This document shows positions 116-21,097 of a stretch of 36,489 nucleotides of DNA, piece after piece; position 1 is the stretch's first letter; every line of letters begins with the position of its first letter. The position numbers were made by a program, and so were the translations under genes. The DNA comes from a virus, in the IMG/VR virus record IMGVR_UViG_3300025369_000035, positions 1 to 36,489 of that record; one strand, given 5' to 3'. The notes beneath the pieces were generated by a model. That model was not told where the DNA came from and did not search any database. It saw only the letters and a list, made by a program, of their open reading frames with translations.

Positions 116-128
116 TCCCTCCTCGCTT

Positions 129-311
129 TCATAAAAAATCTTCCTTATTTATTTTTCGATTTTTTAATTTAGTACGTATCTTTTTCAGAGCCGTCCTTTC
201 TATTTGTCCTGCTAAACTTCGTGTGATACCTAACTCTTTTGCTACTTCTTCTTGTGTCATGCCTTCAGGGTGTCCTTCAACATAACTAGGGCGTTTTTGT
301 TTCTTATCCAT
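129..311 (-). CDS. Sigma-70 region 4-like small DNA-binding protein
   Basis: This 60-residue protein consists almost entirely of one helix-turn-helix. Residues about 19-46 (TQEEVAKELGITRSLAGQIE, then a short basic helix) match the pattern of sigma-70 region 4, where the motif recognises the -35 element and ends in a Q-I-E-x-x-A-L-x-K-[IL]-R signature. No regions 2 or 3 are present, so it cannot act as a full sigma factor. Family knowledge suggests a transcription regulator that binds promoters or host RNA polymerase; that role is inferred. It is the second-to-last gene visible in the leftward early operon. The basic N terminus (KKQKR) fits DNA binding. Confidence 0.7.
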   Translation of the reverse strand: MDKKQKRPSYVEGHPEGMTQEEVAKELGITRSLAGQIERTALKKIRTKLKNRKINKEDFL

Positions 312-314
312 AGA

Positions 315-554
315 TCAGTTAATCGTGCGATTTTCGTAAGTGTCCATAACGTGTCCTGCAACGTGATTAGCGGCTGATACTAATAGCATAGGTACTTCTT
401 CCTCTTGTAGTTTTAGCCCAAGCACTTTAACTGTGCCTGTCTTTTTATCATGTACCACAAGCACCATCTCAATATCATCTAAGTCCATGCCTTCTTTAAT
501 CCATTCAACTGCCGCATCTAAAGCTTGTGTGCTATTCAGTTCGTTTATATTCAT
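315..554 (-). CDS. Conserved-looking phage protein of unknown function
   Basis: A 79-residue acidic protein with the pattern of a small alpha/beta fold: an N-terminal helix (ALDAAVEWIKEG), then strands (IEMVLVVHD, TVKVLGLKL), then a C-terminal helix (VPMLLVSAANHVAGHV). I do not recognise the family. Its ATG overlaps the stop of the VRR-NUC gene by four bases (ATGA), a strong sign of translational coupling and that both frames are real. No signal peptide or membrane segment is visible. Confidence 0.65.
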   Translation of the reverse strand: MNINELNSTQALDAAVEWIKEGMDLDDIEMVLVVHDKKTGTVKVLGLKLQEEEVPMLLVSAANHVAGHVMDTYENRTIN

Positions 555-853
555 TTCATTCTTTCTATTAAGTTAATTGCTTCTTCTAATACGTACAAAG
601 TATCTTCGTTGACCCACATAGACATACCACCTGCCTTATCTATCTTAGCCATTTCTGCACACTGTAATGCCGTTGGTTTGTTTTTACCTGCCTTACACTC
701 GATCGCTATAAAAAAACCTTTATAGCAAGCAATAATATCAGGAACACCACTACGTCCAAACCCACCGGTAACGGGGTAAAAATAGTAAGCGCCATAATCT
801 TTAAGCATTTTGGTAACTTCATCTTTAACTTTCTTTTCAGGAGTTTTCGCCAT
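551..853 (-). CDS. VRR-NUC domain nuclease (PD-(D/E)xK fold)
   Basis: The 100-residue protein is the length of a stand-alone phage VRR-NUC domain. The core is visible: G-R-SGVPDI with Asp39, the following strands, then IECKAG giving Glu52-x-Lys54, and Gln64 in the next helix. Together these form the D...ExK metal-binding site of the PD-(D/E)xK superfamily. Family members of this type are small nucleases that often cut branched DNA such as Holliday junctions, so a role in resolving replication or recombination intermediates before packaging is plausible but inferred. It overlaps its upstream neighbour by 17 bases and its downstream neighbour by four, so it is embedded in the early operon. Confidence 0.85.
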   Translation of the reverse strand: MAKTPEKKVKDEVTKMLKDYGAYYFYPVTGGFGRSGVPDIIACYKGFFIAIECKAGKNKPTALQCAEMAKIDKAGGMSMWVNEDTLYVLEEAINLIERMK

Positions 854-1055
854 CGTACATCACCTTTAGTTCATTGTTTCTTCTGCGTACAACTTCAATG
901 ACTTCCAATGCTTCATATATTTTTTGTATTTGTGCTTGTGCAAGCGTGTTATCGCCAACTTCGTTATACTTTAATGCTAGTATAACTTCAGCTTCAAGCG
1001 TACACAATGCGGCATTCTCTCGCATCAACGCAACCATTTCTTTACTAATAGTCAT
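837..1055 (-). CDS. Small alpha-helical phage protein, unknown function
   Basis: A 72-residue protein predicted to be nearly all helix, with heptad-like spacing of Leu, Ile and Val (residues 10-60), so it may dimerise as a short coiled coil. No recognisable catalytic motif is seen. Its end overlaps the VRR-NUC start by 17 bases and its start overlaps the MarR-like gene's end by 11 bases. That makes it a tightly coupled member of the early operon, possibly a partner of one of them (inference). Confidence 0.6.
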   Translation of the reverse strand: MTISKEMVALMRENAALCTLEAEVILALKYNEVGDNTLAQAQIQKIYEALEVIEVVRRRNNELKVMYDGENS

Positions 1056-1329
1056 GGGACAATTCCTTTATAAAATCAATGCCTTTTTTAGTCATAGTGA
1101 TGATAGTAACTCTTTTATCTTTAGGGTTTCTACCTTGCTTTAATAATCCTTTGTCTAACAAGTTTGTGAGATACTTATGGGTTGTTGCCAACGACATAAC
1201 ACCATGTGCCTTATCTAGTATGCTCTTGGTATTGGTACTACCTTGTTCGTCGACATAACCCAATATGTATTCTTCTGACCACGATACTTTGTAGCGTTGT
1301 CGTACTGGTTCTGTTTGATATAAATTCAT
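1045..1329 (-). CDS. MarR-like winged helix-turn-helix regulator
   Basis: A 94-residue protein with the order of a winged helix domain: a helix-turn-helix around residues 33-62 (TKSILDKAHGVMSLATTHKY, then LTNLLDKGLLKQG), followed by the wing with D71-K-R-V-T-I-I-T-M-T, close to the MarR signature DxRxxxxxLT, and a terminal helix. Typical MarR proteins have about 140 residues and dimerise through extra N- and C-terminal helices. This one is shorter, so dimerisation may differ. It probably binds DNA to tune early transcription; its target is not known. Confidence 0.72.
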   Translation of the reverse strand: MNLYQTEPVRQRYKVSWSEEYILGYVDEQGSTNTKSILDKAHGVMSLATTHKYLTNLLDKGLLKQGRNPKDKRVTIITMTKKGIDFIKELSHDY

Positions 1330-1341
1330 TTACTTCCTTTC

Positions 1342-1524
1342 TTAAAATGGTGCTTCATCTACTTCAAATGTTTTAAACTTCGTAGGTATGTGAACTATTC
1401 GTAGGTCTTCATCTTTAGCCACAAATGCTTCAGCTTCAGCTTTTGTAGCAAACCCCCGTAGGGGTCTGCCCAGTTCATATACCATGTATCGTATTGCCGT
1501 GAACACAGGTATATTTAACTGCAT
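1342..1524 (-). CDS. Small phage protein of unknown function
   Basis: A 60-residue protein. The middle part (GFATKAEAEAFVAKDEDLRI) resembles the strand-helix 'F-x-T-x-A-E-A-x-A-F' pattern seen in many small phage and bacterial alpha/beta proteins, but no function follows from it. The gene starts one base after the TAG of its upstream neighbour. An AAGGAG site lies 10 bases before the ATG, partly inside the neighbour's last codons, so translation is probably coupled. Confidence 0.6.
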   Translation of the reverse strand: MQLNIPVFTAIRYMVYELGRPLRGFATKAEAEAFVAKDEDLRIVHIPTKFKTFEVDEAPF

Positions 1525-1525
1525 A

Positions 1526-1765
1526 CTATCTATACTCCTTTCCGTCTAAGCGTTTAACATGATTACTAGGGTGACACAACCACTTGTTACCCATCTCTCG
1601 TAGCTTCTGATTAACTTTCTTATCATTGCTCTTACGTAGGTTTGCCATAACGTGTGGCGTTATTACGCCATGCAAAGGGTTATCGCTTATAACTTCTATC
1701 TCATCAATCGTTAAACCAAATACAGCACGACGTACTGAGTTAAAACCTTTTGAATATAATCTCAT
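1526..1765 (-). CDS. Small basic phage protein, unknown function
   Basis: A 79-residue basic protein. It reads as a short DNA- or RNA-associated protein (FNSVRRAVFGLTIDEIEVIS, later NLRKSNDKKVNQKLREMGN), but no family is recognised. The ATG at 1765 has AAGGAG upstream, 10 bases downstream of the DUF3150-like gene, with which it is probably co-transcribed. Confidence 0.6.
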   Translation of the reverse strand: MRLYSKGFNSVRRAVFGLTIDEIEVISDNPLHGVITPHVMANLRKSNDKKVNQKLREMGNKWLCHPSNHVKRLDGKEYR

Positions 1766-1775
1766 GTACTTCTCC

Positions 1776-2651
1776 TTAGAAACTGAACTTGTTTAAAATC
1801 TCATCGACATTAGCCTTGACCTCGTTACGAGTAGGCATATCCTTACGTAAGTCTTGAATATCAACACCATTGATAGCTTTCTCTAACGCCTTGCGTGCTT
1901 CTTCTAAGCTTTGATCGTTAGTTACATTAAGCGACTTAACTAGATTACATAAGTCATGTGCAGTATGCAGTAAGCTATCGTGGAATGTTCTTGTCTTGAC
2001 TTCTTGGTTAATAACATCTACGGCTAACCTGTCAGACATTCTAGCTAGATGGTCTTTGAGTCTAGTCTTTATATCACGCATCGCATTATCAATACGCTCG
2101 TCAGCAAGTTTGGAAAGCTTCTCCTTAATTTCTTTCTGAGCGTCATTACCTACGTCAATACGAAAATCACCTGCCGTTGGTACAGGCATGAAGTTAAGAC
2201 GGAAGTTAAAGCGATGAGCAATATCACTAGGTGCAGGGAAATCACTTCTGTTAAACATATCACCCAACGCCATAGCCTGAGCAGTAATCAGCGTAGGATA
2301 AACAGAAATAAATTCGTCAACTAAATCATTGAACTTACTTTCGTAGGTAGCCATCGTATCATTAAAGTCCATGAACTTAGCAGTAGGCAGTAAGCGAATA
2401 CCTGTATCACTCCACGGCAAGGTGTTGTTATACATATAGGTACGTACCTCACCTACTAACTGGTTGATAATCTCTAACTCTTTACGACCTGCGAGTAAGT
2501 TCTTGTTAACACGAGCCGCACCTTTATCACCTGCTTGCTTGCCTTTGAGAACTTCATCGGTGGTACTCTTATCTAACTTGCGTGCAGTCCATTGGCTTGC
2601 ATTAAACTCAACCAACATTGCACAAGTGTCGATGTTATATCTAGCGTTCAT
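1776..2651 (-). CDS. DUF3150-like protein of the MoxR/VWA module
   Basis: A 291-residue, largely helical, charged protein. The N terminus (residues 9-60) has the W-x-A-R-K-L-D pattern followed by a Lys/Gly segment. The middle contains FNDLVDEFISVYPTLITAQA and a conserved-looking FNFRLNFMPVP, and the C-terminal half is predicted coiled helix. This organisation matches, from memory, the DUF3150 family, which is often encoded beside MoxR-type ATPases and VWA proteins in phages and bacteria. That is the neighbourhood here, with the ATPase at 4524-5648 and the HEXXH/VWA protein at 3264-4514. The biochemical role of the family is unknown; an adaptor or substrate protein for the ATPase is an inference. 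Confidence 0.6.
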   Translation of the reverse strand: MNARYNIDTCAMLVEFNASQWTARKLDKSTTDEVLKGKQAGDKGAARVNKNLLAGRKELEIINQLVGEVRTYMYNNTLPWSDTGIRLLPTAKFMDFNDTMATYESKFNDLVDEFISVYPTLITAQAMALGDMFNRSDFPAPSDIAHRFNFRLNFMPVPTAGDFRIDVGNDAQKEIKEKLSKLADERIDNAMRDIKTRLKDHLARMSDRLAVDVINQEVKTRTFHDSLLHTAHDLCNLVKSLNVTNDQSLEEARKALEKAINGVDIQDLRKDMPTRNEVKANVDEILNKFSF

Positions 2652-2691
2652 ATTATGTTTTCCTTTAGTGTTAATTGTTTAAAAATAAATA

Positions 2692-2883
2692 TTAGTTATC
2701 TAAAAATGGGATGTCAGGTGTTTGTTTTGCTAGTGCGTAATACTCTAACTGTACCTTTGCAGAGTTAATCATTTTGCCTGCAATGTTTGCTAACTCGCCA
2801 GCTTCCTTGTGTTTAATGCTACCTGTACGTAGGTCATTAAACACTTGGGACAATTCATTTCTTAATTCAGTTACGTTTTTCAT
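2692..2883 (-). CDS. Small conserved phage protein (helical, ends PDIPFLDN)
   Basis: A 63-residue helical protein (ELRNELSQVFNDLRTGSIKH, then AGELANIAGKMINSAKVQLE, then a short tail PDIPFL). This pattern recurs in many tailed phages next to HNH-like or replication genes, but I know of no assigned function. The start overlaps the end of the neighbouring basic protein gene by 17 bases. Residues 27-50 look like one amphipathic helix, so it may bind a partner protein. Confidence 0.65.
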   Translation of the reverse strand: MKNVTELRNELSQVFNDLRTGSIKHKEAGELANIAGKMINSAKVQLEYYALAKQTPDIPFLDN

Positions 2884-3256
2884 GTTTAGCTTTCTCTCGT
2901 TTAATTAAAAGTTGTACACGTTTTGCTTCGGCTAGTTCTTTAGGTATGTCTGATGACTTAAGTCGTGTACCTTGAGCCATCTTTTCACGAACATACCAAA
3001 GAGGTAATGTTTCTCTTACTTTTTCTTTTTGCTTGCGTTTACACTCCTTTCCTTTCGGTGACTTGTTGTACAAAGTAGCTGCTTCTTTTTCTTTTGCAAA
3101 TACATAAGCACGTTTTCTATACGCTCTTTTATAAGCGTTTACTTTCTCCTTGTTTTTTTCGTAGTATCTTTTTTTTTGTTCCTTTTTTAATTCTTTCGCA
3201 CGAGGCGTACTGTTGTACGCCCTCCGTCGCTCTTTGAGTTCTTCCTCGCTAAGCAT
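2867..3256 (-). CDS. Lys/Arg-rich phage protein, possibly a degenerate HNH relative
   Basis: A 129-residue, strongly basic protein. The N-terminal half repeats the Y-x-x-x-K-E-K-x-x-x-Y-x-R pattern found as the arm of many phage HNH endonucleases, including the one at 17581-18045 here. However, no His-Asn-His motif and no Cys pairs follow. The C-terminal part (PLWYVREKMAQGTRLKSSDI, then PKELAEAKRVQLLIKRE) matches a tail common in phage small basic proteins. It may be a nucleic-acid-binding protein or an endonuclease that lost its catalytic core. The start has no strong ribosome binding site and lies 7 bases after the VWA gene, so re-initiation is likely. Confidence 0.6.
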   Translation of the reverse strand: MLSEEELKERRRAYNSTPRAKELKKEQKKRYYEKNKEKVNAYKRAYRKRAYVFAKEKEAATLYNKSPKGKECKRKQKEKVRETLPLWYVREKMAQGTRLKSSDIPKELAEAKRVQLLIKREKAKHEKRN

Positions 3257-3263
3257 CTACATC

Positions 3264-4514
3264 TCACGAATAAATACGAACAGTCTTACCACGTGATGCT
3301 ACGAATGAATCATTATCTACTGCACCAAACAACACAGGGAAGTCAGGCAAGCGATAGTCTGACTCGATGTAGCCGTCGGTCAGATAGATAATACCTTTTG
3401 GTTTGATACGATTACTCTCGATATACTCAGCGACACAGGTAACACGTGTGCCACCACCACCCACAGGCTTCATAAGCGAACCGATCTTGTGGTAATCAAT
3501 CGGCTTGAATATCTGCTCACCGACAACCTCGTACTCCCACCACAGTACACGCACAGACTCAGGGTTAAGATTCTGACAGATGCGTGCAATCTCACCGAAC
3601 ACAGTAGGATATAACCCACCCATTGAACCTGACGTATCGCAAGCAACAACAATCTCGCCAGTAGTCTCGCTGAAATGTGATGGCATGATGAAGCCTAAAG
3701 GTAGCATACGTTTGTTAGGGGGACTGTACTTGGAATACTCATCACCATCGCACACAGAAGCTAACCACTCCTTAACATACTCACGCCAGTTAGTATCACG
3801 CTTGACCAATGCACCATCTAACGCACCATTACCTACGCCCTTGCCTGCAATCTTCTGAGCAAGAATACTACCTTGATGGTTGGCATCACTAATCTGTCTG
3901 TCGTTGGTTTCTTTGATGTCATCTGAAATCTTACCAATGATATGCGAATCAAAGTCAGCGTCAATCGGCTTGCCATCAGGGTCAAAGAACACACGCATCT
4001 TGATGTCACCATCGCCATCATCATCGCCATCACCTTTAGGCTTGACGTTGATTGTCTTAGAGTTCTGCATAATATCTTTGAGAACCTGAACGAATGACCA
4101 GCCATAATACTTCTGATGTAACAACGGCTCAGGGTCAGTAGTCCACTCGACGAACTCAAGGTTAGGGTCGGCTTCGTGAATCATAGCGTTAACAACATAG
4201 TCCATAGCGATATTACTAGCAGTCGGCTCACGTTTACATATCTCGTCATACTCTGTGCAATGACGCAAGGCTTTATGTAATGTCTCATGGGCAACAACAA
4301 AGCGTAACTGCTTACGGCTCTGCTTCATAACAAACTCAGGGTTATACATAACGTCTCTGCCGTTAGTGCCTGCTGTTGATAACTCGTCGGTGAAAATGTT
4401 AACACCGACACAGGCAACGCCTGATAACTTAGCAAACTCTTTGTGATGCGTGAAGTCTACGTTAATAGCAATCAAGCGTTGGTCAGGGGACATACGATCA
4501 AATACTGTACTCAT
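3264..4514 (-). CDS. HEXXH metallopeptidase-like and VWA domain protein
   Basis: A 416-residue two-domain protein of the type called VWA-like metallopeptidase (DUF2201). Residues 60-115 carry VVAHETLHKALRH, a zinc HEXXH motif at 76-80, followed by NIAMDYVVNA with Asp105 as a possible further ligand. An Asp/Gly-rich linker spans 161-170. The C-terminal VWA domain has a complete metal-ion-dependent adhesion site: D293-x-S-G-S, Thr356 in GGGGTR, and Asp380 in LTDG. Partners of this kind work with MoxR-type AAA+ ATPases, and the ATPase gene lies 9 bases upstream in the same operon. Whether the HEXXH site is catalytic and what it acts on are unknown. Confidence 0.82.
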   Translation of the reverse strand: MSTVFDRMSPDQRLIAINVDFTHHKEFAKLSGVACVGVNIFTDELSTAGTNGRDVMYNPEFVMKQSRKQLRFVVAHETLHKALRHCTEYDEICKREPTASNIAMDYVVNAMIHEADPNLEFVEWTTDPEPLLHQKYYGWSFVQVLKDIMQNSKTINVKPKGDGDDDGDGDIKMRVFFDPDGKPIDADFDSHIIGKISDDIKETNDRQISDANHQGSILAQKIAGKGVGNGALDGALVKRDTNWREYVKEWLASVCDGDEYSKYSPPNKRMLPLGFIMPSHFSETTGEIVVACDTSGSMGGLYPTVFGEIARICQNLNPESVRVLWWEYEVVGEQIFKPIDYHKIGSLMKPVGGGGTRVTCVAEYIESNRIKPKGIIYLTDGYIESDYRLPDFPVLFGAVDNDSFVASRGKTVRIYS

Positions 4515-4523
4515 GGCTTCTCC

Positions 4524-5648
4524 TTACTTAGTTGTGAAATAAATCTTGTTGTCAGCTAACATCTTCTGAAATGGTGCGACTGTGATGAAGTTGCTAATCT
4601 TAGTCGTACTGTTTGCTACTGTGTTACAGAAGATAGACTGCATCTCGTTGCGTAAGCGTTGTGTATAGATAGTCGATGCCTCAGCTTCCTCACGTGAGTC
4701 GCAGTTAGTAATCAACTTGAACGCCATAACAATCTGTGCAACAGGACTGTCGGCTACACGTGCAGTCGTTGGACTCTTGATAATATCTTGATAGTCAGGG
4801 TTCTCGTTACCGAACCTGATATACGCACCCATAGCATCGGCAGTAGGCTTACCAATCGTACCCTCTAAAGCGTGTTGAAGTGTGTCGGCATCTAAGTAAT
4901 CTTTCTCTAACACAATGTCAGACGCACCATGTAACGAACGAGGGCTAGCGTATGCAGTCTGCATAACGCGTGGGTTAAATATCATATCGTTATCTTTCTC
5001 CATCGCCTTGCCTGAGAACTTGCCACCTTCCTCATAGTCAAGGAATGAATCGAATATACGTGGATACTGCTCAGCAAACGCAAGCACCTCACTCGCCATA
5101 CCACCACGATTGATAGCCCATGCTGACCACTCCTGTTGCGTAGGCTTACGCATAGTGACAAAGACTAGACGATTACGTAAGTGAGCCTGAATAGAATCAC
5201 CCAAGCCCTCAGCCGATAAGTTAGTAGCACAGAACACAACGCTACCCTCAGCCATGTGGTAGTTACCAACACGACGCTCATAAACAATCGGTGCTAGCAC
5301 GTCCTTGATAAACTGCTTAGCCTTAGCTATCTCGTCTAAGAATATGAATGATGGTCTAGCACCATTGATACCTTTCTGATTCTTGGTATTAACACCGAAG
5401 CGTTCGTTAGGTAACTCACGTGATACACCCAACTCTCTGTCAATATCAGGCATCCACACCGAGCCGTCAGACAACTGCGTGCAGTCGATAGGGTCAACGT
5501 GAATATGATTAGCAAAGAACGGGTCTTTAGCGAGGAAGTGAAACAAGCCAGTCTTACCGATACCATTCTCGCCCTGCACGATAATAGTACGCTTGTGACC
5601 AACACGTTTAATAAGATTTGCAACTTGAGTAAATGAAAGCATTGTCAT
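4524..5648 (-). CDS. MoxR-type AAA+ ATPase
   Basis: A 374-residue AAA+ protein. Walker A is GENGIGKT at residues 26-33, Walker B is FIFLDEI at 101-107, sensor 1 is in FCATNLSA (Asn143), and an arginine finger candidate lies in HLRNRLVF (about 158-160). The compact N terminus and the VWA partner immediately downstream point to the MoxR branch, whose members act as chaperones that remodel or insert cofactors into specific proteins. The ATG at 5648 is preceded by AAAGGA at a suitable distance. It probably forms a complex with the HEXXH/VWA protein; the substrate is unknown. Confidence 0.85.
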   Translation of the reverse strand: MTMLSFTQVANLIKRVGHKRTIIVQGENGIGKTGLFHFLAKDPFFANHIHVDPIDCTQLSDGSVWMPDIDRELGVSRELPNERFGVNTKNQKGINGARPSFIFLDEIAKAKQFIKDVLAPIVYERRVGNYHMAEGSVVFCATNLSAEGLGDSIQAHLRNRLVFVTMRKPTQQEWSAWAINRGGMASEVLAFAEQYPRIFDSFLDYEEGGKFSGKAMEKDNDMIFNPRVMQTAYASPRSLHGASDIVLEKDYLDADTLQHALEGTIGKPTADAMGAYIRFGNENPDYQDIIKSPTTARVADSPVAQIVMAFKLITNCDSREEAEASTIYTQRLRNEMQSIFCNTVANSTTKISNFITVAPFQKMLADNKIYFTTK

Positions 5649-5691
5649 ACGATTTTCCTTTAAGTAAATATAGTTGTTTGTTAATACGTTT

Positions 5692-5709
5692 GGGAGAGTT
5701 GTCTCTCCC
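5692..5709. repeat. Hairpin in the gap before the AAA+ gene
   Basis: GGGAGAG, a TTGT loop, then CTCTCCC form a perfect 7-bp stem in the 123-base gap between two minus-strand genes. No U-tract follows on either strand, so it is not a standard intrinsic terminator. It could be an mRNA processing or stability element, or a protein binding site. The rest of the gap is AT-rich, with no gene seen. Confidence 0.55.
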
Positions 5710-5771
5710 TGATTTAGTTATGTATATATTTTTACATAGTTTTTATTTCCTTTCAAGTAATTTGTTTAATT

Positions 5772-6755
5772 TTATTTTGTATACCATTTATGGGGTAACT
5801 TGTCACGGAACTGCCCCCAAGCCTTAAGCGTAGTGCCTTGCTTGATATTGAAAACACTCAGTAACTTGTTAGTAAACGATTTGTTAAAGTCTTCAGGCGA
5901 TACGCTTTCTATGACTTGATTGTGTAGAAGTCGTATCATATTGTCATGCTCTGCTAACTCCTCTGCTGATTTACCATGCCTGTAGAAGTAACGGAACGCA
6001 TTTAATGCATAGCCACGCTGACTAGCTAGAATGTTGAATACGTCTTGACCTGTTAGCATAACTGCATGAATGAATCTATCGCTGTTGAAGTTGAATGAAC
6101 CTACATCAAGCATGCTGTTAGACTCTGACGAAATTACACGTCGCAGTTCTTGGAAACTAAATGGTTCTTTGTATCCTGTGCCGAACGGCATACCTAAGTT
6201 GCCGTCTAACGTAGCGTCGGATTTATATTGTGGTAGTCTGAACTCGTTGAGCATAACTAAATGTTTGATGGCTTCACGTAAGTGCTTGCGTTTGCGTTTG
6301 TCTTCGGTTGACGATATCTTAGTGTAGATGTCCTCATGCCATGATTTATCTAGTATGAGTTTGTTCGACGCATTAAACACCAAACTAGCAGTCACGGCAG
6401 CAGTACGATAGCCACCACTCTGAACATACGGAACGTATACAGTCTTACCACAACTTGTTTCTAAATAGCCATAGTTCAACCGATGATTGTCTAAAAACAT
6501 AGTTGTTGTTGGGGTGTTAACGAACTTGACCTCTACCTTATACTCGCCTTGCTCGTTGGGTGGATAAAATTTAACTAACTCTGTATCGTAGCAACGATAA
6601 TAAACCTCGCCGTTGTCACGTTGATGTATGCCGTAGTGTGTCATGCCAACACCTCTCAAATAGCGTGCATGATCGGGCATATTTAACCATCTTCTACTGT
6701 GCTTTGGTGCTTGTGCTTTGTTGTATTTGTTTAATGCATCTGTATAACTTATCAT
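5772..6755 (-). CDS. Phage protein of unknown function (327 residues)
   Basis: A 327-residue soluble protein without signal peptide or membrane segments. It has a mixed composition rich in Tyr and Arg near the N terminus (HARYLRGVGMTHYGIHQRDN, then EVYYRCYDTELV), a basic helical segment around 150-170 (STEDKRKRKHLREAIKHLVM) and a C-terminal helical region. The N-terminal part suggests a beta-rich domain. I do not recognise the family. It sits immediately upstream of the AAA+ gene with a 123-base gap containing a hairpin, so it may belong to the same functional block. Confidence 0.6.
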   Translation of the reverse strand: MISYTDALNKYNKAQAPKHSRRWLNMPDHARYLRGVGMTHYGIHQRDNGEVYYRCYDTELVKFYPPNEQGEYKVEVKFVNTPTTTMFLDNHRLNYGYLETSCGKTVYVPYVQSGGYRTAAVTASLVFNASNKLILDKSWHEDIYTKISSTEDKRKRKHLREAIKHLVMLNEFRLPQYKSDATLDGNLGMPFGTGYKEPFSFQELRRVISSESNSMLDVGSFNFNSDRFIHAVMLTGQDVFNILASQRGYALNAFRYFYRHGKSAEELAEHDNMIRLLHNQVIESVSPEDFNKSFTNKLLSVFNIKQGTTLKAWGQFRDKLPHKWYTK

Positions 6756-6783
6756 AGTATTTTCCTTTAGGTTGTTAGTTTGT

Positions 6784-7512
6784 TTATGCTACTTGACTCA
6801 TATAAATATCTACTAAACTGCTATCTACTTGACCTCCCTTCTCATTAAAATACACGTTGTTACACGTGTAAACCTCAGCGATATTCTCGTCACTACACTC
6901 GTACTCATACGCTTCATACAACTTCTTATATATAGTGTTAGCGTATCGCTTGGCTTCTTCTAACACCCACTCTTGAATACTCTCAGGTGTTTTGTATTGG
7001 CAATCTGCATCTGCTTGGATTAGTTCATACGCATTATCGAACGTCATACCTTTTAATATTGAGTCCGTTGTTATGGTGTCACCTCGATTCATATACGCAC
7101 CAATATCGTAGTCCATACTCTCAACGCACATTGTCTCGCTGTGATAATACCTACTACTTGAACGATATATGCCGACGTTAGCAGCACCACCCCAAACAGA
7201 TTGAAACAAACAACGCCATGCTTCGAAGCCTATGCTATTGCCACCAAACATATCAATAAACTTAAGCATACCCACATGACCAACCCAACAAGCACCATCA
7301 CCTTGAGAATGAAAGCCTGTGTAGTTTATAACCTCAATACCAAACCCATACTCAAGCCCTTCGGCTTTATACTCATCAAGTAACTCGTTTGCCCACCAAT
7401 CTTCTACCCAATGCTCAATGAAGTCTTGGCGTGGCTTTTCTCTAGCATGAGCGTCGAGTTCGTCATACGTATACATAGTTACAGGTATTGTTAGTTTAGC
7501 CGTTACAGGCAT
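6784..7512 (-). CDS. Phage protein with FHSQGDGA motif (antitoxin-like annotation)
   Basis: A 242-residue protein. Residues about 60-82 carry INYTGFHSQGDGACWVGHVG, a motif I recall from a phage family often labelled 'antitoxin of toxin-antitoxin stability system'. That label is weak and no cognate toxin is visible here. The C-terminal half is acidic, with a long helix (ESIQEWVLEEAKRYANTIYK) and two Cys residues near the end (YECSDEN, VYTCNN). The start has AAGGAG upstream. A copy of the repeated GTGGAG/CTCCAC hairpin lies 22 bases before the start codon. Confidence 0.6.
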   Translation of the reverse strand: MPVTAKLTIPVTMYTYDELDAHAREKPRQDFIEHWVEDWWANELLDEYKAEGLEYGFGIEVINYTGFHSQGDGACWVGHVGMLKFIDMFGGNSIGFEAWRCLFQSVWGGAANVGIYRSSSRYYHSETMCVESMDYDIGAYMNRGDTITTDSILKGMTFDNAYELIQADADCQYKTPESIQEWVLEEAKRYANTIYKKLYEAYEYECSDENIAEVYTCNNVYFNEKGGQVDSSLVDIYMSQVA

Positions 7513-7533
7513 TTTGCTTCTCCTTAAGTTGTT

Positions 7534-7550
7534 GTGGAGGTTTTCTCCAC
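7534..7550. repeat. Copy 1 of the GTGGAG-N5-CTCCAC palindrome (intergenic)
   Basis: GTGGAG, a five-base GTTTT spacer, then CTCCAC. This is the only one of four copies outside a gene, placed between the 174-residue gene's stop (7558) and the next gene's start (7512). The other copies are at 9512, 11149 and 11712. In the minus-strand mRNA it would form a 6-bp hairpin just upstream of a ribosome binding site. Confidence 0.75.
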
Positions 7551-7557
7551 GTGGTTA

Positions 7558-8082
7558 TTAAAACTCGATTCTTACTGATGCTGTCTTGAGGGCTTTGTCT
7601 ACTGCGTCTTCTAACAAATCCTCTATTGCTTCTTTTACTGCGTCTTCTATCCTGTCGCACACAATGTCATCTAAGGCATCACGCACATCTACGTGTTCTT
7701 CTAAATCAAACTGGTGACTGAAATGCTCATGTATCCCATGCTCGATAAGGTCTCGCATACCTTCCTTAACCATATCCTCGATGTCATAGCGTTTATCCAC
7801 AGAGTCAGACAACTTAGCGTAAAGCCAATCAGCGTTTTCCAACGCCGTATCCACAGCCTCAACTAAACTGTCCTGAGAAGACTGATGATAGTGACTCTCA
7901 ATAAGAGAGCCTAGTTGTTGCATGGTTGTTGCTAGCGTATTGAATAACTCCTTGATGGTTGGTGTGTGTGGTATAGGTGCTGTGTCCATTGGTTGATATT
8001 GATTACCTGATAAACCTGTGATGATATACTCATTCATTTGCTTTTCCTTTTCTAGTGGTTGTAGTTTGCCTAGTCCTTCCAT
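7558..8082 (-). CDS. Acidic helical phage protein, unknown function
   Basis: A 174-residue acidic protein. The C-terminal half has repeated short helices with a D-x-x-E-x-x-V-x-x-x-I-x-D rhythm (residues 95-165), suggesting a coiled or helical-repeat structure. The listed ATG shares its A with the TAA stop of the upstream gene (TAATG) and is preceded by AAGGAGG, supporting this start. An alternative is Met16 (MNEYIITGL), which has a weaker AAAGGA site. No family recognised. Confidence 0.6.
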   Translation of the reverse strand: MEGLGKLQPLEKEKQMNEYIITGLSGNQYQPMDTAPIPHTPTIKELFNTLATTMQQLGSLIESHYHQSSQDSLVEAVDTALENADWLYAKLSDSVDKRYDIEDMVKEGMRDLIEHGIHEHFSHQFDLEEHVDVRDALDDIVCDRIEDAVKEAIEDLLEDAVDKALKTASVRIEF

Positions 8083-8525
8083 TACGCTTCCTCCTTTTTG
8101 GTTAATAAATATTTATCTAAATCAAACTTGTCATACTGTGTGTTGAACGGAACTTCCATAGATGTGTAGGTGTAAAAGTCATCGTCAGGTATCCAATCAC
8201 CCTCGCCATCGGAATCATTCTCAATGTCACCTTCCTCTTCGCCGATACATATAAACCGATACCCACAATCGTCAGGATACAACTCGACTGCCCAACTGTA
8301 TAACTTAGTGTGTGCCTTAACATCTTCATACGAGTCATACCACTTCACATCAATAGCGTAGAAGTTAATACGAGTATCGTGCGAAGAATCAAACGGCACA
8401 TCACAATCTTTTAGTGCGTCAATCAAATGCGTATCACCTGTTGCTAACACTACGTTAATATAATCGTCACGCTTCTCTTTACTACTAAAGTTAATAACGT
8501 ATGCTACTTCGCTTCTATAACCCAT
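8082..8525 (-). CDS. Conserved phage protein beginning MGYRSEVAYVI
   Basis: A 147-residue protein. I place the start at the ATG at 8525-8523 (MGYRSEVAYVINF) rather than 63 bases upstream. AAAAGGAG stands just before it, the upstream 52-residue gene ends one base before it, and 'MGYRS-V-Y-I' is the usual opening of this family in phages. The fold appears alpha/beta with Trp and Tyr residues (VKWYDSYEDVKAHTKLYSWA), then an acidic loop around 105-120. Function unknown. Confidence 0.72.
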   Translation of the reverse strand: MGYRSEVAYVINFSSKEKRDDYINVVLATGDTHLIDALKDCDVPFDSSHDTRINFYAIDVKWYDSYEDVKAHTKLYSWAVELYPDDCGYRFICIGEEEGDIENDSDGEGDWIPDDDFYTYTSMEVPFNTQYDKFDLDKYLLTKKEEA

Positions 8526-8526
8526 T

Positions 8527-8685
8527 TCACTTCTCCTTTTTGATTCTGTATTTAATAGATATGTGCCATCTTGGATTGTTATTCTCACAGTCGAACCATT
8601 TGTTTATAGTTCTGTGCTTGTATTGAATAACTGCACCATCAGCCCACGCTTTGATTAACTTCGCATGCCTATGCTTATACTTCAC
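8527..8685 (-). CDS. 52-residue phage protein with IKAWADGA motif, GTG start
   Basis: This short frame has a GTG start, reads MKYKHRHAKLIKAWADGAVI and ends WHISIKYRIKKEK. It matches, from memory, a very common small phage domain with the pattern 'H-x-x-x-I-K-A-W-A-D-G-A-x-I-x-Y ... Y-R-I-K'. The GTG follows the stop of the 76-residue neighbour by one base, and its own TGA ends one base before the next ATG, a neat relay of coupled genes. No strong ribosome binding site precedes the GTG, so coupling is probably needed. Function unknown. Confidence 0.72.
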   Translation of the reverse strand: MKYKHRHAKLIKAWADGAVIQYKHRTINKWFDCENNNPRWHISIKYRIKKEK

Positions 8686-8686
8686 A

Positions 8687-8917
8687 TCACACCCATCTAT
8701 ACTTCGGGCAGTCAGGTACAGTCTGCTTATTTCTACGCATGGCTATCGTGTCGACTAATAAATCTTTTAAGCCATGACGCATCTTGTCTAGTTCCCTACC
8801 TGTCTTGGCGTACAACCACGTGCGTAGTATGCCGTTGGTTTTACTAATACGTTCGGCAGGTTTTAACCCTCTGCGTTTCCACATTCTGTCTAATTCGGTT
8901 TGTGTTCTTGCTTTCAT
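8687..8917 (-). CDS. Small basic phage protein, unknown function
   Basis: A 76-residue basic helical protein (ELDRMWKRRGLKPAERISKT, then RTWLYAKTGRELDKMRHGL). The Arg/Lys and Trp content is compatible with nucleic-acid binding, but no family is recognised. Its ATG lies 4 bases after the stop of the preceding gene, and its stop is one base before the GTG of the next. Confidence 0.6.
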   Translation of the reverse strand: MKARTQTELDRMWKRRGLKPAERISKTNGILRTWLYAKTGRELDKMRHGLKDLLVDTIAMRRNKQTVPDCPKYRWV

Positions 8918-8921
8918 TTGA

Positions 8922-9101
8922 CTAAACCCCCAAGTATTCTTGCGTTTTCTTTATTGCGTCCATTGGGTCTTTAGCCATCACAACCCATTCCCTGTCTACG
9001 TTATTCACAACATACGTAACCTTATGCTTAACTAACTTGGCATCACTATTCATATCAACACAGCGTGCCACAAAACTATGTGGCTTCAAATCTTCATTCA
9101 T
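8922..9101 (-). CDS. Small phage protein, unknown function (59 residues)
   Basis: I place the start at the second ATG of an ATGATG pair (9101; the first, at 9104, is possible). GAGGAG stands seven bases before it and the longer upstream reading has no such site. The protein ends with a strand-helix unit (REWVVMAKDPMDAIKKTQEY) of the type 'V-x-A-x-D-P-x-x-A-I-x-x-x-x' common in small phage proteins. Its start overlaps the end of the neighbour through the repeated GGAGAGTGATGATGA cassette. Confidence 0.6.
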   Translation of the reverse strand: MNEDLKPHSFVARCVDMNSDAKLVKHKVTYVVNNVDREWVVMAKDPMDAIKKTQEYLGV

Positions 9102-9300
9102 CATCACTCTCCTCAGCATATTTCTCTGCTTCAATAATACAATCACCATCAAAGTCCTCGCATGGGTTTATCAAACCACTATCTAAAAGTTCCCTTGCTC
9201 GTTCTTCGGCTTCATCTTTACTATCTGCTTCAACATTCACATACCCTGAGAACGTCTCACTTATATACACAGTAAATAAATTCGGGCTACCATCACTCAT
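9094..9300 (-). CDS. Small acidic phage protein (TVYISETFSGYV), unknown function
   Basis: A 68-residue acidic protein with a strand-helix pattern: FTVYISETFSGYVNVEADS, then DEAEERARELLDSGL, then a negatively charged tail ending EESDDE. The V-x-A-D-S-x-x-E-A-x-x-x-A motif is common in small phage and bacterial proteins that fold as beta-alpha units. The start has AAGGAG with two ATG candidates (9303 and 9300); 9300 has the better spacing. The last codons double as the ribosome binding site of the next gene. Confidence 0.62.
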   Translation of the reverse strand: MSDGSPNLFTVYISETFSGYVNVEADSKDEAEERARELLDSGLINPCEDFDGDCIIEAEKYAEESDDE

Positions 9301-9469
9301 CATCACTCTCCTTTTTTAAGAACTCATGTGGGAACGCATCTATTAATCGCCTAGCATTACTGCTATCTGCCTTGAAGAACAACCTACCTAGTGCATGATG
9401 AAACCCACCGCCTGTCTCAACCATACGTCTTGCGTTGGCGTGTGCCAACCAGTAATCTAAATCATTCAT
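9293..9469 (-). CDS. 58-residue phage protein, unknown function
   Basis: A short frame starting MNDLDYWLAHANARRMVETG, with a second helix ending in ARRLIDAFPHEFLKKESDDE. Composition and helical pattern are typical of real phage genes. GGGAG precedes the ATG at normal spacing, the ATG overlaps the upstream stop as ATGA, and the stop overlaps the next gene's start. The protein contains clustered aromatic and His residues (GGGFHHALGRLFF), which may mark a binding surface. No known function. Confidence 0.72.
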   Translation of the reverse strand: MNDLDYWLAHANARRMVETGGGFHHALGRLFFKADSSNARRLIDAFPHEFLKKESDDE

Positions 9470-9618
9470 ACAACACTCCCTAACAAGTTAATAAAAACAT
9501 TAGACATTCTTGTGGAGATAACCTCCACAAAGTTCACATCAAAAAACGCAGACCAAAACATAATGCCAAACACAACACCAAACACCAGCATCAACAACCA
9601 CTCAATTAGATTCTTCAT
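9466..9618 (-). CDS. Single-span membrane protein, 50 residues
   Basis: The frame from the ATG at 9618 gives MKNLIEWLLMLVFGVVFGIM, a clear hydrophobic segment over residues 5-25, followed by a polar tail. A GAGGAG site lies seven bases upstream. The longer frame that extends to 9753 has no such site and overlaps another real gene, so I reject it. The tail contains VEVIST, encoded by copy 2 of the repeated palindrome. A membrane-interacting early protein is likely; a superinfection-exclusion role is possible but unproven. Confidence 0.65.
   Translation of the reverse strand: MKNLIEWLLMLVFGVVFGIMFWSAFFDVNFVEVISTRMSNVFINLLGSVV
9512..9528. repeat. Copy 2 of the GTGGAG-N5-CTCCAC palindrome (in a gene)
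   Basis: GTGGAG, ATAAC, CTCCAC. The arms extend to 8 bp (TTGTGGAG and CTCCACAA, 9510-9530). It lies inside the 50-residue membrane protein gene, where it encodes VEVIST on the minus strand. Confidence 0.75.
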
Positions 9619-9778
9619 CTTCTTTCTCCTCATTAAACGCATCATCAATCCAACAACTCGTAGCATCAAACGCAACTTGCATAGTCTCGCAGTCTGCATT
9701 GATAGACTCAATAATCGCATCAGCCTGTTCACTATTACAATCAACACCTTCAAACTCTAAACATATCATTACTCGCAT
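9602..9778 (-). CDS. 58-residue phage protein (MRVMICLEFEGVD)
   Basis: A short frame preceded by AAAAGGAG at good spacing. It begins MRVMICLEFEGVDCNSEQAD, has a helix (AIIESINADCETMQVAFDAT), then SCWIDDAFNEEKEDEESN. The beginning, the Cys-containing middle and the W-[IV]-D-D-A-F close to the C terminus match a widespread small phage protein, from memory. It overlaps the membrane protein start by 17 bases, so the pair is translated from a shared mRNA. Function unknown. Confidence 0.75.
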   Translation of the reverse strand: MRVMICLEFEGVDCNSEQADAIIESINADCETMQVAFDATSCWIDDAFNEEKEDEESN

Positions 9779-9796
9779 TTCAACTCTCCTTTTAAA

Positions 9797-10519
9797 TTAA
9801 ATACTACTAACATACCCATACTGCAACAACTCCTCAACACTAAACAAACCTTCCACACTTTTTGGTATCGCCTTTTTAAACGGCAAGTTATTTAATCTAC
9901 GCAACGCCTCCTCATAGAAACGTAAGTTCATCTCATAATAATTAGCGTGTATCCCTGACGCTACACCTCGACCCATTTCATTTATCATTCTGTCTATGTG
10001 GTCGTTCAACTTGTTACGTTGACTCTGTTTGTTTCTAGACAGCACGTTCGGGCTTTTAAATATCTCTCGATACACAGTATGAGGACTGGTGCGTGGCAAG
10101 GTATTATATTTTTCTTTTACTTTATCCTTGACTTCATCAGGCACGTAGTCAACCCATGTTGCGTTTGGTTTTGGCGATACGTTGTTCTTCTCTTTATCTT
10201 TCAACTCATCTCTCAATGCACGCAGAAGTGCTAGGTATTTAATGTTGAACTTATAATAAGCAGGGTTCGCTTCTTCATAGAGATGTTGGTGAGTAATAAT
10301 ACTTTGTATCGTATCTCTTAAGGGTGTTAGCACTACTGCCCATTCAGTCTTTAACCTAACACGTAGTTGTTTCTTTTGATTGTTAGCCCTACGCTTTTCT
10401 TTTAGTGCATCTATTCTTGCGTGTATGAATGCAACAGGCATACTTGGGTAGTTGCTTACCAAATAATTATAGATTTGTTTCGGCGTTGAATTACGTGTGA
10501 TTGGTTTACGTTTATTCAT
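9797..10519 (-). CDS. Phage protein of unknown function (240 residues, basic)
   Basis: A 240-residue basic protein. The first 20 residues (MNKRKPITRNSTPKQIYNYL) and a long helix at 40-60 (ALKEKRRANNQKKQLRVRLK) suggest nucleic-acid contact. The middle is helical, with a KDKEKNN linker near 110. It ends in hydrophobic helices (SVEGLFSVEELLQYGYVSSI). No family recognised. It is the first gene downstream of the 400-base non-coding segment, with a promoter candidate (TTGACA, 17 bases, GACAAT) 30-60 bases upstream of the ATG and AAGGA at its start. Confidence 0.6.
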   Translation of the reverse strand: MNKRKPITRNSTPKQIYNYLVSNYPSMPVAFIHARIDALKEKRRANNQKKQLRVRLKTEWAVVLTPLRDTIQSIITHQHLYEEANPAYYKFNIKYLALLRALRDELKDKEKNNVSPKPNATWVDYVPDEVKDKVKEKYNTLPRTSPHTVYREIFKSPNVLSRNKQSQRNKLNDHIDRMINEMGRGVASGIHANYYEMNLRFYEEALRRLNNLPFKKAIPKSVEGLFSVEELLQYGYVSSI

Positions 10520-10550
10520 TGTTAGTTCCTTTTTGTATGATTAAAGTTAT

Positions 10551-10579
10551 ATTGTCCACCTAACAGTCCATTGTGTCAA
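10551..10579 (-). promoter_or_regulatory. Leftward promoter candidate before the 240-residue gene
   Basis: On the minus strand, a perfect -35 TTGACA (10579-10574), a 17-base spacer and GACAAT (10556-10551) stand about 32 bases before the ATG at 10519. Both TGGAC units of the leftmost doublet lie within the spacer and -10, so a protein bound to them would block this promoter. The -10 matches only four of six consensus bases. Confidence 0.5.
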
Positions 10580-10776
10580 ACATTGTTATTCTTTTTTGTG
10601 CAGAGTAAGTCACCTCTTGTGCCTTTAAGTATATGGGTTTGCTGATGTTATGTCCAGTTGTCCAGTCTTTTTGGAATACTATAAACAATAAACCTTTTTA
10701 TAAGAATGTTAGTGCTTTAAATTAAAACAATGAATAAACTAACAACCCTATATATATAAATAAATAAATAATATAT

Positions 10777-10803
10777 ATTATATTGTGGACACTTGGACTT
10801 CAA
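10777..10803 (-). promoter_or_regulatory. Leftward promoter candidate at the AT-rich core
   Basis: On the minus strand, TTGAAG (10803-10798) and a perfect TATAAT (10782-10777) are separated by 15 bases, slightly short. The third TGGAC doublet fills the spacer and touches the -35. The AT-rich flank makes chance TATAAT matches more likely, which lowers confidence. Confidence 0.35.
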
Positions 10804-10918
10804 ATCTTCAACGCCTTATATATAAACGCTTGGGGGGTGTCCCGTGCTACGCTAAAAGAACTAACAATGTTGGACACGCTGGACGTTAGTGCAAAACAAC
10901 ACAACTCTCCATAACAAG

Positions 10919-11125
10919 TTAACGTATCTCCTTTCTCATCATGTCTGCGAGTCTTACTGATGTCATGGCTGTCCACCCTGTGTTGAGTGTATCTATGCCG
11001 TTCATCTTTCGCACAGCCTTGATTGCTTTGTTGAGTGAGTCATAGTAGTTGCCTACCTCTGTTACTTTGTTGTCTTGCTTGAATACTAATACCCATAGTG
11101 ATGCGTTGTTCTTTAGTGCTTTCAT
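10919..11125 (-). CDS. Small phage protein, unknown function (68 residues)
   Basis: I start at the ATG at 11125 (MKALKNNASLWVLVFKQDNK) because AAGGAG stands seven bases before it. The in-frame extension to 11251 overlaps another real gene and lacks such a site. The protein has a short hydrophobic strand (SLWVLVF) and a helix (SLNKAIKAVRKMNGI), an arrangement typical of small phage alpha/beta proteins. It lies directly to the right of the control region. No family recognised. Confidence 0.6.
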   Translation of the reverse strand: MKALKNNASLWVLVFKQDNKVTEVGNYYDSLNKAIKAVRKMNGIDTLNTGWTAMTSVRLADMMRKEIR

Positions 11126-11135
11126 AATGCTCTCC

Positions 11136-11306
11136 TTAGATGGTTGATGTGGAGAAAACCTCCACTTGATTGGATACTGCTTTTGCCTTACGGATACTGC
11201 TACTACGCTTACGGCGTGAGATGTTGATGTCCCACGCTTTACCATTAACACGATACGCCCTCATAATGCGTATGTGTATAGTTCTCTTTCGTGATATTGA
11301 TTTCAT
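11136..11306 (-). CDS. 56-residue basic phage protein
   Basis: A short frame from the ATG at 11306 with AGGAGG upstream and an ATGA overlap with the preceding gene's stop. The protein is very basic (MKSISRKRTIHIRIMRAYRV, then INISRRKRSSSIRKAKAVSN) and ends QVEVFSTSTI. The VEVFST part is encoded by copy 3 of the repeated palindrome, suggesting that the element was inserted or retained as a C-terminal extension. Nucleic-acid binding is plausible. Function unknown. Confidence 0.6.
   Translation of the reverse strand: MKSISRKRTIHIRIMRAYRVNGKAWDINISRRKRSSSIRKAKAVSNQVEVFSTSTI
11149..11165. repeat. Copy 3 of the GTGGAG-N5-CTCCAC palindrome (in a gene)
   Basis: GTGGAG, AAAAC, CTCCAC, inside the 3' end of the 56-residue basic gene, where it encodes VEVFST on the minus strand. 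Its 17 bases are the exact reverse complement of the sequence given for copies 1 and 4. Confidence 0.75.
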
Positions 11307-11521
11307 CGTGCCTCCTGATATATAACACCAAGTGCTAGGGTTGCACTAAGGGCATCTTTCAATTCGTTGAGTGTGTCGTTGCCATCTATGTATTTGGTAT
11401 CTACTGTTGCGTATAAGATGCAATCAAGTAAGAGTGCCGTCTGTTCAAGTGTTAGTTCGCTGAACGTGCTAAGTAGATGGCTGTGCTTTTGGTTTGGGTT
11501 TTTAATTTGAGTGTGTTTCAT
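11303..11521 (-). CDS. Small phage protein, unknown function (72 residues)
   Basis: A 72-residue helical protein: a polar N terminus (MKHTQIKNPNQKHSHLL), a hydrophobic helix (EQTALLLDCILYATV), then a second helix (TLNELKDALSATLALGVIYQ). It has AAAGGA upstream of the ATG, and its TGA overlaps the next gene's ATG (ATGA). Upstream is a structured 49-base element (11550-11598). No family recognised. Confidence 0.6.
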   Translation of the reverse strand: MKHTQIKNPNQKHSHLLSTFSELTLEQTALLLDCILYATVDTKYIDGNDTLNELKDALSATLALGVIYQEAR

Positions 11522-11549
11522 ATTTATTTCCTTTCGTTAAGTTAGATTT

Positions 11550-11598
11550 GACAGGAATTGAAATAGCAGTAAAGCCTCACCCTCTCGCAATCCCTGTC
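11550..11598. other. Structured intergenic element between two early genes
   Basis: Arms GACAGG-A-ATTG (11550-11560) and CAAT-C-CCTGTC (11588-11598) pair around a 27-base loop with one internal mismatch, giving a 10-pair stem. It lies in the 84-base gap between two minus-strand genes. No U-tract follows, so a terminator is unlikely. A small structured RNA, an mRNA processing site or a protein-binding leader are options. Confidence 0.5.
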
Positions 11599-11605
11599 GG
11601 TTTGA

Positions 11606-12016
11606 TTAAACATTGAGTAGTGCAACAAGTTTGCGTAACTGTGCTTTCGTGAAATCCTTATTGAGTTTGTTAGCACGTTGCACAATCGGGTCTACCTGTT
11701 TAGAACTTGTTGTGGAGGTTTTCTCCACATGGGTTGGCATATAATACTTAAGCATTGCTCTAGCCTGTTCCTCTTTCGCTGTGCCATGTGCGTTGAAACC
11801 AAGCGAACCTGTGTAAACACCTTTTTCAATCGTGATTGGTGTGACCTTCTTTTTCTTACCAATGAGTGTAGCAATAGCACTACGCAACTCTAACTGTTCC
11901 TCTAGGCTTGACTTGTTATAGATAGGCTTAACTGTATCCATAACTTCTTTGAGAGAGACACCAGCATCAATGTGTTTAGCAACAGCATCAATGTATTTCG
12001 TAAAGACAGCCTTCAT
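11606..12016 (-). CDS. First gene of the leftward early operon, unknown function
   Basis: I start at the ATG at 12016 (MKAVFTKYIDAVAKHIDAGV), which has GGAGG four bases upstream. The extension to 12040 starts with TTG inside the terminator stem. The 136-residue protein is basic, with a helical N terminus, a KKKKV segment near 68, and a C-terminal helix (QRANKLNKDFTKAQLRKLVA). The middle contains HVEKTST, encoded by copy 4 of the repeated palindrome. It lies immediately after an intrinsic terminator in the leader, so its expression requires read-through. A regulator or antiterminator role is speculative. Confidence 0.6.
   Translation of the reverse strand: MKAVFTKYIDAVAKHIDAGVSLKEVMDTVKPIYNKSSLEEQLELRSAIATLIGKKKKVTPITIEKGVYTGSLGFNAHGTAKEEQARAMLKYYMPTHVEKTSTTSSKQVDPIVQRANKLNKDFTKAQLRKLVALLNV
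11712..11728. repeat. Copy 4 of the GTGGAG-N5-CTCCAC palindrome (in a gene)
   Basis: GTGGAG, GTTTT, CTCCAC, the same 17 bases as copy 1, inside the 136-residue early gene. On the minus strand it is read in a different frame from copies 2 and 3 relative to its spacer, giving VEKTST. Confidence 0.75.
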
Positions 12017-12029
12017 AAAACCTCCAAAT

Positions 12030-12055
12030 AAAAAAGCCAAGCGAAGTGGCTTGGC
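12030..12055 (-). terminator. Leftward intrinsic terminator in the early leader
   Basis: On the minus strand, GCCAAGC (12055-12049), a six-base CACTTC loop and GCTTGGC (12042-12036) are followed by TTTTTT (12035-12030). It lies between the promoter at 12088-12096 and the GGAGG of the first early gene (12025-12021). No U-tract exists for the plus direction. Its position makes it an attenuator or antitermination target rather than an end-of-operon terminator. Confidence 0.85.
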
Positions 12056-12059
12056 AACA

Positions 12060-12259
12060 CACTAGCAATTCCTCACTAGATGACTCTATTATAACATATG
12101 GTATGATTCTAGTATCTATATTTACCCCACTACCCCCCAACCCACCTCAAATCGACGAGGACAGTCCAGTCCACTAGATCACTATTCCTCACACGCAACT
12201 TAAAAAAATGTCAAATTTTGTAAAAAATCCTATGAGTCATGTCAAATCTTAGACACTAG
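12060..12259. promoter_or_regulatory. Cluster of short repeats in the divergent control region
   Basis: CACTAG occurs four times in the same orientation (12060, 12074, 12172, 12254). ATGTCAAAT occurs twice, at 12208 and 12239, 31 bases apart (three helical turns). A GTCCAGTCCA pair (12164-12173) recalls the doublets at 10554-10884. These flank the extended -10 promoter, so they are candidate operator sites for phage regulators. No gene is seen in 12017-12317. Confidence 0.45.
12088..12096 (-). promoter_or_regulatory. Leftward extended -10 promoter of the early operon
   Basis: The minus strand reads TGTTATAAT, a full TG-N-TATAAT extended -10. The -35 is weak (TAGATA, with a 19-base spacer), as is normal for extended -10 promoters. 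Transcription would start near 12081, leaving about 26 bases before the terminator stem and about 65 bases before the first early gene. Confidence 0.65.
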
Positions 12260-12264
12260 CCAAT

Positions 12265-12294
12265 AAAAAAAGCCCCAACGCTTAGGATGGGGCT
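12265..12294 (-). terminator. Second leftward intrinsic terminator
   Basis: On the minus strand, AGCCCCA (12294-12288), a 10-base loop and TGGGGCT (12277-12271) run into T residues (12270-12265). It is oriented leftward like the other terminator. It would stop antisense transcripts from the late region or a short transcript from the candidate promoter at 12340-12348. Confidence 0.85.
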
Positions 12295-12317
12295 AAAGAA
12301 TACTAAAGGAAAAGCAA

Positions 12318-12425
12318 ATGTATGAGCACTTGCAACGCCAGTATAACAAAAAAATTAAAATACTGTTACAATCGAAACCATACGCGAACCCACCGCGCAA
12401 AAAAGAGAGGTTAACTTGTTATTGA
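12318..12425 (+). CDS. Possible 35-residue leader peptide upstream of terminase
   Basis: ATG at 12318 with AAAGGAAAAG upstream opens a basic 35-residue frame (MYEHLQRQYNKKIKILLQSK, ending KERLTCY). Its TGA at 12423 overlaps the TTG start of the terminase small subunit by 10 bases. It could be a real small protein, or a translated leader that couples ribosomes to the weak TTG start. No homologue is recognised, and the surrounding sequence also carries promoter-like elements, so confidence is modest. Confidence 0.4.
   Translation: MYEHLQRQYNKKIKILLQSKPYANPPRKKERLTCY
12340..12348 (-). promoter_or_regulatory. Second leftward extended -10 promoter candidate
   Basis: The minus strand reads TGTTATACT, another TG-N-TATA-type element, about 40 bases upstream of the second terminator's stem. 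It repeats the promoter-then-terminator arrangement seen for the early operon. No good -35 is visible. Confidence 0.35.
12343..12372 (+). promoter_or_regulatory. Rightward (late) promoter candidate
   Basis: An extended -10 TGTTACAAT ends at 12372, with a weak -35 ATAACA (12343-12348) 18 bases before TACAAT. It is the best rightward candidate before the terminase genes. It lies inside the possible 35-residue leader frame, so both cannot be fully used by the same transcript. Confidence 0.35.
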
Positions 12426-21072: not shown

Positions 21073-21097
21073 CCCCGCTCACAAGGCGGGGTTTTTT
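21073..21097 (+). terminator. Intrinsic terminator after the major capsid gene
   Basis: CCCCGC (21073-21078), a seven-base loop TCACAAG and GCGGGG (21086-21091) are followed by TTTTTT (21092-21097). Classical form, 23 bases after the capsid stop. Confidence 0.92.

Follow-up and report, generated by a model that had tools for sequence, protein, structure and literature searches.

The first leftward early gene of a virus from the IMG/VR collection is preceded by an extended –10 promoter and a leader of ~57 nt, in which a 5′-terminal hairpin is followed by a complete intrinsic terminator, with both hairpins conserved and covarying among relatives, the U tract of the terminator retained, and the parts of a regulatory switch that we searched for absent. 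This leader is conserved and previously undescribed, yet it is a variation on known attenuators, and promoter-terminator modules as such are already known. We consider that it has a little under an even chance of being a constitutive promoter-proximal attenuator, which would trim a strong early promoter and make a ~57-nt double-hairpin RNA.

Anatomy of the early leader

The window, that is, the whole stretch of DNA analyzed here, is the 36.5-kb virus record IMGVR_UViG_3300025369_000035, which is partial. Its leftward genes occupy positions 1–12016, and the packaging and structural genes, which are rightward, start at ~12416. The minus strand carries, in succession, TGTTATAAT, the 5′ hairpin, the terminator stem-loop, UUUUUUAUUU, GGAGG, TTTT, and the ATG at 12016. 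The extended –10 element of the early leftward promoter, TGTTATAAT at 12088–12096 (minus strand), is correctly placed in an earlier note on this DNA, and a –10 is found in the same place in 57 relatives; no recognizable –35 lies upstream of 12096–12088. The motif TGNTATAAT has a single exact copy in the window, at 12096–12088, and since 2.6 copies are expected in shuffled sequences, the –10 motif alone proves nothing. From the –10 spacing, transcription is predicted to start ~5–8 nt past the –10, at 12080–12082 (minus strand).

The first element of the transcript would be the 5′-terminal hairpin CUAGUGA-GGAA-UUGCUAG (12062–12079, minus strand, with outer pairs to 12082/12058), as identified by folding and by covariation in relatives; the earlier note, whose coordinates for the leader were otherwise right, had overlooked this hairpin between promoter and terminator. 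It is followed by a 7-bp stem-loop with the loop CACUUC (12036–12055, minus strand; GCCAAGC-CACTTC-GCTTGGC in DNA, 12055–12036), which runs into TTTTTTATTT at 12035–12026, the U tract UUUUUUAUUU of the RNA (12026–12035, minus strand), so that a GC-rich stem-loop is immediately joined by a U tract, as in an intrinsic terminator. Its d'Aubenton-type score is 26.5, and when both window strands were scanned with loops of up to 9 nt, a limit that misses the RNA1 terminator described below, just one stem-loop (at 21073, plus strand) scored higher, with no stem-loop scoring above 20 in 20 shuffled windows. The sequence signature of the intrinsic terminator claimed at 12055–12030 is borne out, both by this score and by its covarying conservation in relatives. 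The same applies to the claim that there is no room for a promoter past it, as just 20 nt are left, made up of the U tract and the Shine-Dalgarno sequence of the first early gene (GGAGG, read from the sequence at 12021–12025, minus strand).

The first early gene itself (11606–12016, minus strand) encodes a mostly helical protein of 136 amino acids, and a gene is found in the same position in nearly all relatives. Its product has no PHROG or Pfam match, no homologues were found in sequenced phages or bacterial genomes, and its predicted fold (pLDDT 84) gave no significant match against the PDB and viral models. The proteins found at this place in relatives are 122–156 amino acids long and differ in their N-terminal parts, and many of them share a C-terminal helical tail, KQVDPV...L-(S/T)-x-x-(E/Q). 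The N-terminal part appears to be swapped or fast-evolving, a pattern that would suit a modular protein of host takeover or counter-defence. Nothing was found that ties this gene mechanistically to the leader. Elsewhere in the leftward block, a 60-aa protein (129–311, minus strand) resembles sigma-70 region 4 (Pfam E = 2e-8, PHROG sigma factor E = 6e-9) and is possibly a late-transcription or polymerase-modifying factor, and a 400-nt AT-rich noncoding gap (10520–10918) contains promoter-like sites at 10656–10628 and 10579–10551 and might be a further early promoter or an origin.

Upstream of the early promoter lies a second leftward promoter-terminator unit, RNA1 (12264–12345, minus strand), with a –10 element TATACT at 12345–12340, a stem-loop at 12294–12271, and a U tract at 12270–12264. 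Its terminator ends transcripts from upstream before they reach the early promoter. In an alignment of 30 loci, RNA1 (~80–110 nt) is kept in nearly all relatives and comprises the –10, a GCAAG...UUGC hairpin, the CU-rich, anti-Shine-Dalgarno-like UUCUCCUU, and a strong terminator. Possibly, it is a small RNA. Read on the plus strand, bases of RNA1 give AAGGAGAAGCAAATG, which could begin a tiny ORF ahead of terS; the peptide of this ORF is not conserved. Also kept across relatives between terS and the early promoter are a G-rich block of the GGTTGGTGGGTATCGGGTGGGG type (12125–12148 in the window, minus strand, recognized by comparison of relatives), a box resembling GAGGAACAGTGTT, and copies of TTTGACA (12246–12240 and 12215–12209 in the window); a packaging site, an origin, or operators are conceivable roles for these.

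Covarying hairpins in related phages

A search with TerL provided 80 related loci with 79–100% TerL identity, which are part of roughly 600 TerL relatives. All relatives compared are metagenomic contigs, and no sequenced isolates with the leader arrangement were found; HTVC027P and DSL-LC04, isolates with ~50% identical TerL, were rejected as counterparts because their gene order around terL differs. An Rfam search of the window and four relatives gave nothing above the gathering score, and the leader itself had no match at E values up to 1.

Where a first-gene homologue is present, the promoter, hairpin, terminator, Shine-Dalgarno sequence, and ATG recur in differing sequence, with the exception of one locus (L012) that has the homologue and is missing the terminator. 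Eighteen leaders were used to build a covariance model for the leader (59 nt), which matched 19 of the 80 sources at E < 2e-6, once per genome and always directly upstream of the first leftward gene, and these matches include a locus from outside the training set (L037). Eight further contigs carry the leader, seven of which were retrieved through a pattern limited to the promoter and the first part of the 5′ hairpin; besides these, one contig ends inside the leader, and another (L101) is without it.

In the model alignment, which was fitted to structure and is thus biased in favor of pairing, double-sided changes are found at 13 of the 15 pairs, with 53 double-change cells compared to 13.5 in shuffles, 87.7% of the pair cells are paired (73.3% when shuffled and at most 46.8% when slid), and the covariation score is reached by no shuffle. 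The two helices contribute separately to this signal, in that the 5′ hairpin shows double-sided changes at all eight of its pairs among relatives, and the terminator stem, in which 98.7% of the cells are paired over 22 rows, shows them at five of its seven pairs. Taking the bias of the alignment into account, compensation is nevertheless seen directly in two close sisters with otherwise near-identical leaders, the stems of which read GCCGTGC/GCACGGC (L019) and GCCGAGC/GCTCGGC (L091). The near-identical loci L001–L005 vary too little to be informative, and the single-stranded parts of the leader (both loops and the linker) are variable among relatives. This conservation indicates that both leader hairpins are real RNA structures rather than a chance motif.

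Gain and loss of the terminator

Terminator class in the relatives was assigned by score, with 21 leaders scoring between 4.6 and 35.3 and the terminator-less relatives reaching at most 4.1, with a median of –50. The U tract directly follows the stem in every leader of the terminator class, including those with different stems, although the stem sequence varies. In the terminator-less relatives, the 5′ hairpin is directly followed by the Shine-Dalgarno sequence, or a GGGGAC...GUCCCC hairpin is present that has no U tract. Because the scores split into two groups and the U tract is kept, termination itself looks to be selected.

Of the 57 loci placed on a TerL DNA tree, 21 have the terminator and 36 do not; it is carried by 16 of the 19 members of one clade and by five loci scattered in the other, and its history takes six changes, of which at least five (gains or losses) are forced by well-supported branches. 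In essentially all loci, with or without the terminator, a 5′-terminal hairpin starts 4–9 nt past the –10, four of the automatic calls having been mended by hand and two being doubtful. The near-universal hairpin is therefore the constant element of the leader, and the patchy terminator an optional one. The distribution also means that early expression is not obligatorily gated by the terminator, in contrast to the earlier note, which had stated that such expression must cross it; this part of the proposal falls, and what stands is that transcription of the first gene from the early promoter does cross the terminator. Later genes of the operon could have their own promoters.

We also compared promoter quality between the two classes, scoring the –10 as matches to TATAAT plus TGn; –10 elements in the relatives were called automatically, with the hexamers of L019, L023, L029, and L033 corrected by hand and those of L071 and L086 being doubtful. 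The mean score is 6.6 with the terminator and 4.9 without it, with a p-value of 5e-6 that ignores kinship and is inflated by shared ancestry. Among independent pairs, about four out of five agree in –10 strength and terminator presence and almost none disagree, five pairs being a number with which significance is unreachable. Judged on these pairs, the association of strong –10 elements with the terminator is suggestive only, and it is what would be expected if the terminator trims an over-strong promoter.

Attenuation and its alternatives

Since transcripts of the first gene cross a terminator that appears to be selected, attenuation, one of three readings that the earlier note had taken to be implied, is supported as the plain reading of the leader. 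From the sequence comparisons, we infer termination, its efficiency, constitutive read-through, and a stabilizing role, in the following scheme. Host sigma70 RNA polymerase would initiate from the extended –10 promoter, the initial ~20 nt would fold as the 5′-terminal hairpin, and the complete intrinsic terminator would be met ~30 nt past the start, where a fixed fraction of the transcripts would stop to give a ~57-nt RNA with a hairpin at each end. The remainder would read through, exposing the Shine-Dalgarno sequence a few nucleotides on, and become early mRNA. The terminator would thus be a dose setter for a very strong promoter, not an on/off switch, with the short RNA as a by-product. The leader of ampC in Escherichia coli is a promoter-proximal attenuator without a leader peptide. 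Attenuators of this type resemble the phage leader in that the terminator lies a few tens of nucleotides past the start and directly before the Shine-Dalgarno sequence of the first gene; the phage leader differs in belonging to an early operon, in beginning with a covarying 5′-terminal hairpin, and in having no visible ribosome-dependent control. This hairpin probably shields the read-through mRNA from 5′-end-dependent decay and stabilizes both products, as 5′ secondary structure is known to stabilize mRNA in E. coli by protecting against RppH and RNase E (PMC3997798).

A switching leader, which had also been suggested, found no support. The best terminator-free fold is worse by 8.7–16.5 kcal mol–1 in 17 leaders, a gap that, within the energy models, excludes a riboswitch or mutually exclusive antiterminator fold, and no conserved leader ORF was found ahead of the terminator. 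Neither boxA nor a Q-type pause element was found, and these two also bear on conditional antitermination, in which read-through would be timed by a factor of the host or phage or by the 5′ hairpin acting on RNA polymerase in the manner of HK022 put. We regard this, the main rival of the attenuator, as rather unlikely. In its favor, the succession of promoter, downstream intrinsic terminator, and genes is the layout of the lambdoid Q-dependent late promoters and of Pseudomonas AlpA (PMC6606751, PMC9371919). The phage leader differs from these systems, however, in that a –10-like pause element of the Q/AlpA type (≥4/6) is found in none of the 21 terminator leaders. No protein-binding element appears to be common to the –35/–10 spacers, and no Q or AlpA-like protein or annotated antiterminator was seen among the leftward proteins scanned in the window of this partial record, which encodes the sigma-70 region 4-like protein described above. 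In eight of the 21 terminator leaders (L017, L018, L019, L020, L024, L029, L033, and L036), the spacer directly upstream of the –10 carries a palindrome, CCACAAN4GTTGTGG (arms of 6–7), which is found in none of the 34 terminator-less leaders and not in the window, and which is possibly an operator.

HK022 put consists of two adjacent stem-loops that bind RNA polymerase and acts as an RNA antiterminator. An RNA antiterminator of Tn916, canT, tested as a 452-bp fragment, works on a terminator between a promoter and its operon (PMC11658703). The phage leader shares with both a structured nascent RNA near the promoter, conserved here as the hairpin upstream of the terminator, with the terminator further on. 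We note, however, that the likeness to put is a superficial one of layout, and that the phage leader has one short hairpin adjoining the terminator, which is equally present in terminator-less relatives, arguing against a hairpin that serves read-through alone. With lambda N/nut (boxA, boxB), the leader has in common a small early-leader hairpin whose loop is GNRA-like (GGAA in the window), and it differs in having no boxA (GCUCUUUA-like) upstream of the terminator, the best match in the window having four mismatches in eight positions, and no identified N-like protein. Furthermore, the leftward genes that extend for 12 kb downstream were found to contain no other well-scoring intrinsic terminator (loops of up to 9 nt), which leaves a processive antitermination system with nothing evident to act on in the window's early operon.

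The short terminated RNA could instead be the product, a ~57-nt phage small RNA with the mRNA arising by read-through, which we consider improbable. Hairpins at both ends would make for a stable RNA, and the strong promoter is kept despite the terminator; as a weaker promoter would be a simpler route to the same output, this counts against the attenuator and gives a hint of some value in the short RNA or in conditional read-through. The variable loops and linker, however, provide no conserved single-stranded seed, and the RNA would be missing together with the terminator in 36 of the 57 relatives. That the stem-loop is a 5′-UTR hairpin shaping translation or mRNA stability with little termination is very unlikely, since, although GGGGAC...GUCCCC hairpins occupy the same place before the Shine-Dalgarno sequence in other relatives and a similar hairpin precedes another early gene in the window, this type is without the U tract that every member of the terminator class has, and several genomes carry both kinds in series. 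In the window and relatives, GGGGAC...GUCCCC-type hairpins sit ~8–15 nt before the Shine-Dalgarno sequences of early genes, the copy in the window being GUGGAGG-UUUU-CUCCAC (11163–11147, minus strand, without a U tract).

Returning to the attenuator, these comparisons describe a conserved RNA leader, composed of a 5′ hairpin and a terminator, in widespread uncultured aquatic phages, with selection on its structure and with its terminator half gained and lost. Sister lineages with and without the terminator provide a natural experiment on promoter strength versus a promoter-proximal terminator. It is a long shot that the 5′-terminal hairpin is a new cis-acting RNA of ~25 nt that would load on the escaping polymerase and license read-through where a terminator is present. 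The leader is also a compact system in which to test whether a minimal RNA can bring about antitermination.
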